DNA from: Neisseriaceae bacterium
GTDB taxonomy: Bacteria > Pseudomonadota > Gammaproteobacteria > Burkholderiales > Chromobacteriaceae
Assembly: GCA_027489245.1 (NCBI GenBank)
Contig: JAIYAC010000002.1
Location: 1 to 64,000 of the forward strand
Direction of reading: 5' to 3'
DNA: 64,000 nt
The translations under genes and the position numbers were made by a program. Each line of letters opens with the position of its first letter. Within the stretch, counting starts at the first letter, position 1. The notes under the pieces were generated by a model. The model saw only the letters and a list, made by a program, of their open reading frames with translations, made no database searches and was not told the DNA's origin. Below are positions 4,314 to 28,142 of the stretch, in pieces.

Positions 4314-5405
4314 ATGGACACAATCGATACCGTCGTGATCGGCGCGGGGGTCGTCGGCCTGGCCTGCGCGCGCGCCCTGGCGCTGGGCGGGCGAGAAGTG
4401 ATGATCGTGGAACAGGAAAGCGCCATCGGCCAGCACACCAGCAGCCGCAATAGCGAAGTGATTCACGCCGGCATCTACTACGCCCCCGGCAGCCACAAGG
4501 CGCGGCTATGCGTGGCCGGGCGCCACATGCTGTACCGCTACTGTGCCGAGCGCGCCATCGCGCACCAGCGCATCGGCAAGCTGCTGCTAGCCGTAGACGC
4601 CGCCGACGCCGGCAGGTTGGCCGCACTGCAACAGCACGCTGCGGCCAACGGTGTGGCGCTGCACTGGCTGGACCACGCCGCGCTGCACGCGCGCGAACCG
4701 GCACTGCACGCCCACGCCGCCCTGCACTCGCCCGACACCGGCATTATCGACAGCCACGCCCTGATGCAAGCGCTGCTGGCCGATGCCGAACACGCGGGGG
4801 CCATGCTGGCGCTGGCGTCGCCAGTACACGGCGGCCGCGCCGGTGCCGACGGCATCGTGCTGCAACTGGGCGAGGGTTACGAAATACTGGCGCGCCAGGT
4901 GGTGAACGCCGCCGGGCTATGGGCACCCACGCTGGCGCAGCAGCTGGATGGCGTTCCACGTGAAACCATCCCCACGCCCTGCTACGCCCGTGGCGTGTAC
5001 TTTGCCCTGGCCGGGCGCAGCCCGTTCTCGCAGCTGATCTACCCGCTACCCGAGCCCGGCGGCCTGGGGACGCACCTGACGCTGGACCTGGGCGGCCAGG
5101 CGCGCTTTGGCCCGGACGTGGAATGGATAAACGGTGTGGATTACACGCTAGACCCGCAGCGGGCGCAGGGCTTTTACCACAGCATACGCCGCTGGTGGCC
5201 GGGGCTGGCCGACGGCGCGCTGGCGCCCGCGTATAGCGGTGTGCGGCCCAAGATCGTGCCGCAAGGCGCGGCCGACGGGGATTTTGTCATTCAGGGCCCG
5301 GCCGTGCATGGCGTACCCAGGCTGGTAAACCTGTACGGTATCGAGTCGCCCGGGCTAACCGCCAGCCTGGCGATCGCCGCCGAGGTGGCTGCCCTGCTGC
5401 GCTAG
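4314..5405 (+). CDS. FAD-dependent oxidoreductase, L-2-hydroxyglutarate oxidase (LhgO)-like
   Basis: N-terminal [40 protein letters not shown]. Confidence 0.85.
4616..4649. repeat. intragenic inverted pair of DUS-like motif
   Basis: GTTGGCCGCA 4616-4625 and TGCGGCCAAC 4640-4649. Confidence 0.85.
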
Positions 5406-22226: not shown

Positions 22227-23093
22227 ATGAGTCACCCCGTACACCCCGATCTGTTACCCGCTGGCGTACGCGCCATCGAGCTGGCCCCTGGCGTACCCGG
22301 CCTGGCATTTACCCACCCCGCGTTCACCGCCACCCTCAGCCTGTACGGTGGCCAGCTGCTGGGCTATACCCCGCACGGCGGCCAACCTTTGTTTTACCTG
22401 TCCCCCACGGCGCTACTGCAGCCGGGCAAGGCCATACGCGGCGGCGTGCCGCTGTGCTGGCCGTGGTTTGGCAAACATGGCAGCGACAGCAGCCAGCCGC
22501 AGCACGGCGTGGCCCGCACCGCGCTGTGGACGGTAAACGCCATTGCGCGCAGCGAGCTGGGGTTTCACGTGAAACTGAACGGCCCGCGCCACGGCGAGCT
22601 GTCGTCCAGCCTGAGCCTGGTACTGGGCGACAGCGTGGACATGGCGCTGACCACGCGTAACCACGGCAAGACCGTGGCCACCGTCAGCGCAGCACTGCAC
22701 AGCTATATTGCCGTGGGTGATATCCGCCAAATCAGCCTGGTCGGCCTGGAAAACACCCGCAGCCACGACAAGCTGACCGACAGCCACGGCACCCTGCCTG
22801 CCAGCCCGTGGCGCTTTGATGGCCCGACCGACGCTGTGGTGGCCAGCGGTGCCGCCACGGTGCTGCACGATGCTGCCTGGCAGCGCACGGTCAGCATCAA
22901 GCCCGGTGGCTCGGACAGCACCGTGGTATGGACCCCGTGGGCCGCCGGCGCTGCCGCGCTGGCCGACATGCCGGACGACAGCTGGCAGCACTTTGTGTGC
23001 GTAGAGGCCGCCAATGCCGGCGCGGATAGCCGCCAGATCGCGCCGGGGGACAGCCATACACTAAGCCAGCATTTGCACGTGGCGGGGGTATAA
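22227..23093 (+). CDS. D-hexose-6-phosphate mutarotase / aldose 1-epimerase family (YeaD-like)
   Basis: GGVPLCWPWFGKHG; HGVARTALW. Confidence 0.88.
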   Translation: MSHPVHPDLLPAGVRAIELAPGVPGLAFTHPAFTATLSLYGGQLLGYTPHGGQPLFYLSPTALLQPGKAIRGGVPLCWPWFGKHGSDSSQPQHGVARTALWTVNAIARSELGFHVKLNGPRHGELSSSLSLVLGDSVDMALTTRNHGKTVATVSAALHSYIAVGDIRQISLVGLENTRSHDKLTDSHGTLPASPWRFDGPTDAVVASGAATVLHDAAWQRTVSIKPGGSDSTVVWTPWAAGAAALADMPDDSWQHFVCVEAANAGADSRQIAPGDSHTLSQHLHVAGV

Positions 23094-24404: not shown

Positions 24405-25652
24405 TTAGCCGAGTGTGTCTGCGATCAGGCTGGCGATACGTTCACTGGCGCCGCGGTGAGCGGCGGTAAAGGCCAGGCCAGCCTGGCGCATGTGCAGGCG
24501 GGCATCAGCATCGGCCAGCAGCTGCAGTGCCGTGGCCACCAGCTGGCTGGCGTCGTGCACCTGGCGCGCCGCGCCCGCCTGCAGGGCCAGCGCGCTGGCC
24601 TCGGCAAAATTATAGGTGGAGGGCCCCAGGAGTACAGGTACACCGACACTGGCCGGCTCGATCAGGTTCTGCGCGCCAAAATCCAGCAAGGAGCCGCCAA
24701 CAAACGCCACATCGGCGGCGGCGTAGTAGGCAAACAGCTCGCCCATGCTGTCGCCCACCCACACCTGGGTGTCGGCAGCCACGGCGGCCTGGTCGCTGCG
24801 GCGCTGCACGGCCAAGCCGCGGGCTGCGGCCAACTGTGCTACCTCGGCAAAACGCTCGGGGTGGCGCGGCACCAGCACCAGCAGGGCCCGCTGCGGGCCG
24901 GCGGCCTGCCAGGCGTCCAGAATCAGCGCTTCTTCGCCATCCCGCGTGCTGGCGCACACCCACACCGGGCGGGTGCCGATACGGGCACGGAAGGCCTCGC
25001 CCAGGGCCAGCTTGTCGGCGGGCGGGGTGAAATCGTACTTGGTGCTGCCGCACACCAGCGGCGCCGGCGTACCCAATGCGGCCAACCTGGCGGCATCGTC
25101 GGGGCTTTGCGCGGCCACGGCGTTCAGGCGCTGCAGGGCCGGGCGCACCAGGCGGCGTATGCGCTGGTAGCCGCGGGCGGATTTTTCCGACAGCCGGGCG
25201 TTCACCAGCAGCACCGGCACCTTGGCGTCGCGGCAGGCGTGGATCATGGCTGGCCAGATTTCGGTTTCCATCAGCAGCAGGCAGGCCGGCTGCGCGGCGG
25301 CGACGAAACGGCGCATCCAGCGCAGGTTGTCGTACGGCAGGTAATGCACCTGGGCGTCGGGGTACAGCTCCTGCGCGGTGGCCCGGCCGGTGGGCGTCAT
25401 CTGGGTAATCAGCAAGCTGGCCTGGGGATAACGTGCGCGCAGGGCTTTCACCAGCGGCAGCGCAGCGCGGGTTTCGCCTACCGACACCGCGTGCAGCCAG
25501 ATCTGCTGGCCGCGCGGCTGCGGCAGGCTGCGGCCGAAGCGTTCGTCCCAGTGTTCAAGATAAGCCGGCGCCTGGCGGGCACGCTTTTTCAGGTAACGCT
25601 TGATCAGCGGCGTGAGCAGCGGCCACAGCGCGGAATACAGCTGCAGCAGCAT
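24405..25652 (-). CDS. waaA: 3-deoxy-D-manno-octulosonic acid (Kdo) transferase
   Basis: IWLHAVSVGETRAALPLVKAL; METEIWPAMI; FVGGSLLDFGAQNLIEPA. Confidence 0.94.
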   Translation of the reverse strand: MLLQLYSALWPLLTPLIKRYLKKRARQAPAYLEHWDERFGRSLPQPRGQQIWLHAVSVGETRAALPLVKALRARYPQASLLITQMTPTGRATAQELYPDAQVHYLPYDNLRWMRRFVAAAQPACLLLMETEIWPAMIHACRDAKVPVLLVNARLSEKSARGYQRIRRLVRPALQRLNAVAAQSPDDAARLAALGTPAPLVCGSTKYDFTPPADKLALGEAFRARIGTRPVWVCASTRDGEEALILDAWQAAGPQRALLVLVPRHPERFAEVAQLAAARGLAVQRRSDQAAVAADTQVWVGDSMGELFAYYAAADVAFVGGSLLDFGAQNLIEPASVGVPVLLGPSTYNFAEASALALQAGAARQVHDASQLVATALQLLADADARLHMRQAGLAFTAAHRGASERIASLIADTLG

Positions 25653-26611
25653 CAGGCAGCCCCCCGCACGCGGGCCAGCAGCGCCAGCACCGCGTCCACT
25701 GGCGGTACCTGCCCTGCCCGGCCGATGTTGGCCGCACGGGCGGTTTCTACCACACCGGTCAGCGCCGGGTCGGTATCGGTATAGATCGCCACCAGGGGCA
25801 CATCCAGCGCATTGGCCAGATGCGTGAGGCCAGTATCCACACCCACGACGGCAGCAGCGTGGCCCAGCAGCGCGGCCGCGTCGCGCAGCGGCATGCGTGG
25901 CGCTACCACGGCGCCCGGCATGGCAGCGGCCAAGCGCGCTGCCCGCGCCTGCTCCACCGCATTCCCCCAAGGCAGTACCGCGTACAACCCTTGTGCGGCC
26001 AGCTCGGCTGCCAGGGCCAGCCAGTGCGGCTCTGGCCACAGCTTGCTGTCGCGGCTGGTGGCATGCAGCAGCACGGCGTAGTGGCCGGCCGGTAGCCAGC
26101 CCGGGCGGGCACCAGCGCGAATGCCGAACACCGGCGCACCGCTGACTTCATAACCGAACGCCGCGGCAAACAGGCGGCGGTTACGCTCGATGGCCGACAG
26201 CTGGCGGCTGACGGTGTAGTGGCGCTGATAAAAGCGTGCGGCCAACGGTTCGCGGATGCTGGTGGCGTCGTAGCCGGCCAGCGGGCCGTTGGCCAGCCAG
26301 CCCGGTAGCGCACTTTTCAACAGGCCTTGCGCGTCCAGCACCAGATCCCAGCGCGTGCTTTGTAATGATGCTTTCAGTGCCGCCATCTGCTGCCAGGTAT
26401 CGCGCGCCAGCAAATGCTTGCGCCAGCGGCGCCAGGCAATGGGCAGCGTGGCCTGTACCTGCGGGTGCAGGCCGGGGATATCCACAAAGGCTTCTTCCGC
26501 CAGCCAGGTGATGCGGGTATCGGGCTGGTGTCGTGCCAGGTCGGTAAGGGCCGGCCAGGTGTGGATAAGGTCGCCCATCGACGATGTGCGCAGCAGGAGG
26601 ACATTTTTCAT
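25652..26611 (-). CDS. waaC: lipopolysaccharide heptosyltransferase I
   Basis: MKNVLLLRTSSMGDLIHTWPALTDLARHQPDTRITWLAEEAF; stop overlaps waaA start (TGATG). Confidence 0.93.
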   Translation of the reverse strand: MKNVLLLRTSSMGDLIHTWPALTDLARHQPDTRITWLAEEAFVDIPGLHPQVQATLPIAWRRWRKHLLARDTWQQMAALKASLQSTRWDLVLDAQGLLKSALPGWLANGPLAGYDATSIREPLAARFYQRHYTVSRQLSAIERNRRLFAAAFGYEVSGAPVFGIRAGARPGWLPAGHYAVLLHATSRDSKLWPEPHWLALAAELAAQGLYAVLPWGNAVEQARAARLAAAMPGAVVAPRMPLRDAAALLGHAAAVVGVDTGLTHLANALDVPLVAIYTDTDPALTGVVETARAANIGRAGQVPPVDAVLALLARVRGAA

Positions 26612-28142
26612 GCGCGGAATTTTACGGCTGCCCCTGTGGTTAACCAAGTAAAATCGCGGCGACCCGAATGTGGATAAAGCGCTGTGGATAAGAAAGCCCA
26701 TAGTTATCCACAAAGGCTCCCACCGGCGCAGCCTGGGTTAATGGGGTAGCCACACACATGGCAACACCTTGAAAAACAGGTGTTTTTTATACTTACCCAC
26801 AGCAAAGTGCCTTGTATATCATTGTCTTCAAATAAGTAATGTGAAAACAATGAAAGCGTGAGGTGCGAAATTGTCTGGCAAAAGTTCAGCCAAAAACGGC
26901 GGTCTGCAAGACGTCCAAACAGGGGGACTAGCGCAATACGCTTCGCTGCAGACCAGACGTCATGGCACACTTGATGCACAGGCAGCGGGTAAAAGCAGGC
27001 TTAGGCGTGTGGACAAGCCGGGTTAATCACAAAACGGCAGATTTATCCACAAAGCTTGCACCACAAAACAGGCCAGACAGCCACAGCTGTTCATGCAGCA
27101 CAATCCATTGAAAAAAAACAGGAAAACTGGCTTACCCACAGCCAGTTAGCGCCTTCATCAGCCCTTATCAATTTAATTACTGGACAGTCTAGAAAGTATG
27201 TCTGAAGCGCTAAGCGTGGTGCTTATCACCAAAAATGCAGAAAACCAGCTGGAAAAATGTCTGCAAAGCTGTGCTTTTGCCGACGAGATCGTGGTAGTGG
27301 ATTCGGGGAGTACGGACAGGACATTGGCAATAGCTTCTGCCTATAAGGCGAAAGTTATCCACCAGGACTGGCTGGGTTTTGGCCCGCAGAAGCAGTTTGC
27401 CGTGGCGCAAGCTAGCCACGATTGGGTGTTATGCCTGGATGCAGATGAATGGCTGTCTGAAAAATTACGCCATGAAATCATGAGCTTGCTTAAAAACCCG
27501 CGCGGCTACGCCTGGCGTTTTGCCCGTAGCAACAAGTTCATGGGGCGTTTTTTGCAATTTGGCGAAGGCTATCCGGATTACAGCCTGCGTCTGTTTCACC
27601 GCCAGCACGCCCGCTGGTCGGACGATGCGGTGCACGAATATGTGCAGACAGATAGCCAGGTTGGCACCCTGGCAGGCGACCTGATGCACGAATCCGGTGA
27701 AGACATTGCCCTCTACCTGACAAAACAGAACCGCTACACCAGCTTGCAGGCCGATGCGCTGTACCAGCGTGGCAAAAAATGTGGTGTGGCCAAGCTGGTG
27801 TTCAGCCCGCTGACGCGATTTATCAAGTTTTATCTGGTACGCCAGGGCTTTCGCGATGGTTTGCCCGGCCTGGTGCACATCAGCATTGGCTGCTTTAACA
27901 GCTATATCAAATACGCCAAGCTGATCGAGCTGCACCGGCTGGGGAAAAGCCGCTAGATCTGCGGCGGGCTGTGGATAAACAGGCCAGTCAGCCCGTTTTT
28001 GCTGACCTGTGTGTGTAAAAGCAGCAGGTGCTCACCGTTTGATCATGCCGGTCAGCCTGTGGGTAAACGGCGTTTGCCCGCTAAGCTGCTGTTTTTGCAT
28101 GCATTCAGCGCAGGTAAAACCAATCAACACGGTTTATCCACA
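26560..28142. promoter_or_regulatory. DnaA-box cluster (seven perfect TTATCCACA boxes plus near matches)
   Basis: Perfect: 26560-26568(-), 26669-26677(-), 26683-26691(-), 26704-26712(+), 27043-27051(+), 27970-27978(-), 28134-28142(+). Confidence 0.75.
27198..27956 (+). CDS. glycosyltransferase family 2 (WaaE-like LPS core)
   Basis: LSVVLITKNAENQLEKCLQSCAFADEIVVVDSGSTDRT; LDADEWLS. Confidence 0.92.
   Translation: MSEALSVVLITKNAENQLEKCLQSCAFADEIVVVDSGSTDRTLAIASAYKAKVIHQDWLGFGPQKQFAVAQASHDWVLCLDADEWLSEKLRHEIMSLLKNPRGYAWRFARSNKFMGRFLQFGEGYPDYSLRLFHRQHARWSDDAVHEYVQTDSQVGTLAGDLMHESGEDIALYLTKQNRYTSLQADALYQRGKKCGVAKLVFSPLTRFIKFYLVRQGFRDGLPGLVHISIGCFNSYIKYAKLIELHRLGKSR

Follow-up and report, generated by a model that had tools for sequence, protein, structure and literature searches.

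Bacterial replication origins usually sit at dnaA, and many genomes are numbered from that gene with the origin assumed to be there. The oriC of E. coli lies apart from dnaA and contains, besides its DnaA boxes, an IHF site and an AT-rich element for unwinding. In the oriC of Bacillus subtilis, the basal unwinding system (BUS) consists of co-oriented DnaA boxes followed by an AT-rich stretch of DnaA-trios (PMC6669920, PMC10721633), the consensus of which is 3'-GAT-5' (PMC10721633). For Laribacter hongkongensis, a relative within the Neisseriales, Ori-Finder predicted an oriC with eight DnaA boxes (PMC3135505). E. coli further contains DnaA box clusters at datA, DARS1 and DARS2, with IHF sites also at datA and DARS2 (PMC4585315). 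Here we analysed a stretch of 64,000 nucleotides (the window) and describe a DnaA box cluster between waaC and a glycosyltransferase gene, whose region at about 26,620–27,200, with outer boxes to 28,142, is very probably the chromosomal replication origin of a Vogesella-like betaproteobacterium. This reading is based on the position of the GC-skew minimum, a dif-like site opposite, clustering of parS, a conserved box anatomy and adjoining stretches of low stability.

The original prediction had placed seven perfect TTATCCACA boxes in 1.6 kb, and we recover all of them at the same coordinates (26560, 26669, 26683 and 27970 on the minus strand; 26704, 27043 and 28134 on the plus strand), together with its near matches at 26793, 27008, 27132 and 28058 and the only four other perfect boxes of the window (9320, 34889, 48111 and 48439). 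Further near boxes, absent from that prediction, lie at 26635 (conserved, minus strand), 26478, 27355 and 28636. Its remark that part of the interval is AT-rich holds as well, with the 60-mers at 26780 and 27153 being within the window's twelve least stable separated 60-mers (z values in Table 1). Dinucleotide shuffles of the window contain 0.09 perfect boxes on average and at most 2. The window's own genome (3.51 Mb) has 32 perfect boxes, 7 of them in the cluster, and when 32 boxes were placed randomly 20,000 times, no 1583-bp stretch received more than 3. Among the matches listed for the genomes searched, including complete relatives, the cluster is the densest of all. Since the box at 26560 occupies the codons of a conserved motif, and near-boxes (TCATCCACA and similar) are found close to the waaC start in relatives without any cluster, this box probably reflects in part a coding constraint.

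Table 1. Features of the waaC-side locus (window coordinates).
Feature	Position	Strand	Remarks
parS-like palindrome	4953..4966	.	one mismatch
parS palindrome GTTTCACGTGAAAC	22562..22575	.	perfect; 4 kb from cluster
waaC-type heptosyltransferase gene (glycosyltransferase family 9)	25652..26611	-	Pfam PF01075, E=2.5e-50; left border of the predicted origin
Perfect DnaA box	26560..26568	-	within waaC coding sequence, codons of conserved LIHT motif
Near-match box TTAACCACA	26635..26643	-	kept in nearly all relatives
Module A	26669..26801	+	minus box 26669, extra minus box 26683, plus box 26704, plus box TTACCCACA 26793; spacing exact in 30/30
IHF-like site CAACACCTTGAAA	26762..26774	+	31 bp ahead of module A's last box
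DUE-like stretch A (TATATCATTGTCTTCAAATAA)	26802..26860	+	low helix stability, 60-mer from 26780 z=+4.1; conserved
Module B	27008..27140	+	minus box TTGTCCACA 27008, plus box 27043, plus box TTACCCACA 27132; spacing as in module A, 30/30
IHF-like site CAATCCATTGAAA	27101..27113	+	31 bp ahead of module B's last box
DUE-like stretch B	27141..27197	+	12 nt past box, CTTCATC...CTTATCAATTTAATTA; 60-mer from 27153 z=+3.5; conserved in 30 relatives
Family 2 glycosyltransferase gene	27198..27956	+	Pfam PF00535, E=2.2e-20; right border of the predicted origin core
Outer group	27970..28142		perfect boxes 27970 (-), 28134 (+), near match 28058 (-); counterparts in nearest relatives

The core boxes follow a plan of a minus box, 26 nt, a plus box, 80–81 nt and another plus box, as in module A, where the plus box at 26704 sits 26 nt past the minus box at 26669. 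Conservation of the boxes in related genomes, the lack of which would by the original prediction have counted against it, is found throughout: in an alignment of the waaC-to-glycosyltransferase spacer, two tandem modules with this spacing, each box with at most two mismatches, are present in 30 of 30 relatives, a figure that counts genomes rather than events, as the relatives are not independent. Individual assemblies of relatives may contain errors. An IHF-like site that departs from the consensus taken from PMC4585315 at no more than one position occurs in 37 of the 60 modules, compared to 2.4% of mononucleotide-shuffled spacers, and in these 37 it always lies 31–32 bp ahead of the last box. 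Each module is followed by a stretch of low stability, as computed from the sequence. In module B, a conserved CTTC(T/A)(A/T)C starts about 12 nt past the last plus box, with the second plus box 89–90 bp upstream; this motif resembles DnaA-trios, a likeness that we regard as a lead. Over the 50 nt past the last box, modules A and B have an average of 23.4 identical positions, compared to 16.2 ± 2.4 for random pairs from the same spacers, which is consistent with the two modules being related by duplication.

Judged by its glycosyltransferase protein, the window is closest to a Neisseriaceae MAG (98%) and Vogesella mureinivorans (97%), followed by other Vogesella, Gulbenkiania, Aquitalea, Pseudogulbenkiania, Chromobacterium and Paludibacterium; from this one protein we infer a genome of Vogesella or close to it. 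The original prediction was also right that no dnaA lies near the cluster: the gene is absent from the window and, in the window's own genome, is found on another contig (C9:33348). In relatives with both loci placed on one contig, dnaA is 15–236 kb from the cluster, and the dnaA loci (2.4–3.5 kb) hold one perfect box or none, one being found in most genomes.

A skew change, the lack of which was likewise to count against the original prediction, was found in four of the five relatives (G031, G036, G004, G001 and G025) in which we read 400 kb around the cluster. In G031 the cumulative GC-skew minimum and the cluster centre are 34 bp apart, and in G036 1.3 kb, with dnaA 132 and 238 kb from the minimum, respectively. 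In the two Vogesella genomes, G004 and G001, the minimum is 12 and 13.8 kb from the cluster, and dnaA is 62–69 kb away. In 20-kb samples of G001 (4.15 Mb), the skew is negative to the left of the locus and positive to the right; its second change of sign falls in the interval 3.05–3.25 Mb, roughly half a chromosome away. G025 is ambiguous, as its weak skew forms a plateau with the minimum 88 kb from the cluster and 14 kb from dnaA; parS and the dif-like site nonetheless favour the cluster in this genome. The window's own skew, read over only 64 kb of a fragmentary genome, is too short to decide and shows the same sideways shift as the two Vogesella. At 13–26.6 kb of the window, left of the cluster, GC skew is positive despite more minus- than plus-strand coding in a rough ORF tally. 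Gene orientation as the cause of the 12–14 kb offset in Vogesella is not supported when this tally is set against the skew.

The other chromosome-scale marks point to the same place. A search pattern similar to the proteobacterial dif motif (PMC2731167) found a dif-like site once in five of six genomes, and in all five it lies at 0.477–0.499 of the chromosome from the cluster compared to 0.446–0.468 from dnaA, hence more nearly antipodal to the cluster. In each of the nine genomes searched, palindromes of the parS type lie around the cluster. Six of these genomes are complete, and there the distance between the cluster and the closest palindrome is 4.6–8 kb, with all palindromes at least 55 kb from dnaA.

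The original prediction had left three readings side by side, a datA- or DARS-like locus, DnaA-controlled transcription and an unusual origin. The last is strongly supported, whereas the other two leave the chromosome-scale signals unexplained. In the first reading, the cluster would act by DnaA titration or by promoting ATP hydrolysis or nucleotide exchange, and replication would start at dnaA. Clustered boxes and an IHF-like site would fit this, as both are also features of datA and DARS2 (PMC4585315). However, datA and the DARS loci of E. coli are regulatory clusters away from the origin, while the site described here falls on the skew minimum in two genomes, faces the dif-like site across the chromosome and sits inside the parS domain; dnaA, with at most one box, has none of these marks, and no better oriC candidate than the waaC-side cluster was seen among the box matches of the genomes searched. 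We thus consider such a regulatory role in place of an origin very unlikely. Control of the waaC and glycosyltransferase promoters by DnaA, with no part in replication, would suit a cluster that occupies the space between two divergent genes, and DnaA does regulate genes in other bacteria. Yet this gene pair is controlled in Rhodocyclales with no perfect boxes present, two exactly spaced modules with low-stability stretches exceed what promoters need, and skew, dif-like site and parS position would be left unaccounted for, so that we give this reading hardly any weight. On the evidence of skew, dif-like site and parS, both readings were rejected; an origin at this place may well bring the two flanking promoters under DnaA control as a by-product.

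It is similarly improbable in the extreme that the cluster acts as a second origin alongside one at dnaA. The perfect box retained at dnaA in most genomes and the skew minimum near dnaA in G025 would agree with it, but a single box is typical of dnaA autoregulation and not of an origin, and the minimum lies away from dnaA in four genomes.

Boxes elsewhere in these genomes gave some separate observations. In the window, 48111 (minus strand) and 48439 (plus strand), with 48451 (minus strand, TTATCAACA) next to the latter, form a pair about 330 bp apart that is matched by a pair at the corresponding offset in the syntenic G004 (2658205/2658533) and may be a secondary DnaA site. Two genera have, far from the origin, an opposed pair of boxes separated by 27 bp (G031 C1:3960936/3960963; G036 C1:3645337/3645364), which is a candidate datA/DARS-like site. 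In G036 C1, same-strand TTATCCACA pairs 29 bp apart recur along the chromosome (e.g. 138185/138214, 180929/180958, 206649/206678, 885668/885697 and 4450591/4450620), as if they belonged to a dispersed repeat.

The divergent pairing of waaC and the glycosyltransferase gene is kept in all 30 relatives analysed, and in members of the window's family the two genes are about 490–590 nt apart, with the modules present; the whole family has apparently kept the origin beside waaC. Rhodocyclales and other betaproteobacteria have the same divergent pair at an estimated distance of mostly 46–48 nt (from 37 nt up to a few hundred, seldom beyond), and no perfect boxes were found there within 750 nt upstream of the glycosyltransferase gene; outside the Neisseriales, only a Methylococcales MAG departs from this, with one box. 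Since Rhodocyclales possess the pair without perfect boxes, the simplest inference is that the origin arose inside, or was inserted into, an older gene pair in the Neisseriales line. The 26-nt box pair by itself is unspecific, as an order-wide search found it in other families too, in none of the examined loci beside waaC.

There is partial evidence that the same origin extends to a second family and to Neisseria. In the second family (f51), all six genomes examined have boxes gathered beside waaC, to varying degree, and the four parS sites of one complete genome are located at waaC. Four complete Neisseria-like genomes of family f44 (G079, G163, G233 and G320) contain only two parS-like palindromes each, about 2.7–3 kb apart and both at waaC, one of them within about 35 bp of the waaC start. 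In G079, 10 of 26 perfect boxes fall within about 12 kb around waaC, and the uptake sequence ATGCCGTCTGAA is present in 1437 copies in the one f44 genome tested. Two further f44 genomes, G200 and G123, have few boxes beside waaC, and G123 is without a parS match; thus, the extension does not cover all of f44. Neisseria perhaps has its origin beside waaC as well.

Based on the anatomy, the position and known origins, we propose the following mechanism. DnaA would bind the high-affinity boxes of the two tandem modules, and IHF or a similar bending protein would bind 31 bp ahead of the last box and fold the module. A DnaA-ATP oligomer would then grow from the last plus box into the adjoining low-stability, trio-like CTTC(T/A)(A/T)C stretch, which would open and permit helicase loading; either stretch might be the one that melts, and both modules might fire. 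ParB at the surrounding parS sites would subsequently segregate the duplicated origins. As to history, we lean slightly towards a scenario in which an ancestor of the Neisseriales acquired its working origin in the short gap separating waaC from the glycosyltransferase gene, either by formation on the spot or by a move away from dnaA; this origin would have a tandem two-module form with two potential unwinding sites, and in Neisseria it would still be in use in the waaC region.

If the locus is the origin, numbering from dnaA is probably off by 15–240 kb in the window's family, an error that affects replication-timing and gene-dosage estimates as well as growth rates estimated from metagenomes. 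Rhodocyclales, where the gap usually measures about 46 nt and perfect boxes are missing, and Neisseriales, with the origin in that gap, would provide a before-and-after pair for studying the birth of an origin. The repeated module of fixed spacing is a testable model for asking which module opens and whether both are needed and, should the extension to Neisseria be true, the genus would gain a specific candidate origin.

Location and two-module plan together are an oriC variant for which we found no description; literature searches, with subscription papers and DoriC outside their reach, returned no paper on the waaC-side locus, and DoriC may already list a waaC-side origin. Like E. coli oriC, the locus lies apart from dnaA and joins boxes to an IHF-like site and a predicted AT-rich unwinding element, but its flanking genes are different, its modules are two and repeated, and its boxes are stronger, i.e. 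consensus boxes. Furthermore, GATC is absent from 26611–27197, where 1.6 copies are expected, so that, unlike in E. coli, there is no sign of Dam/SeqA-type control. With the BUS of B. subtilis it shares the order of a plus box and a trio-like AT-rich stretch, whereas it is located away from dnaA, comprises two complete tandem modules and has one, not two, co-oriented boxes directly ahead of the putative trio-like stretch.
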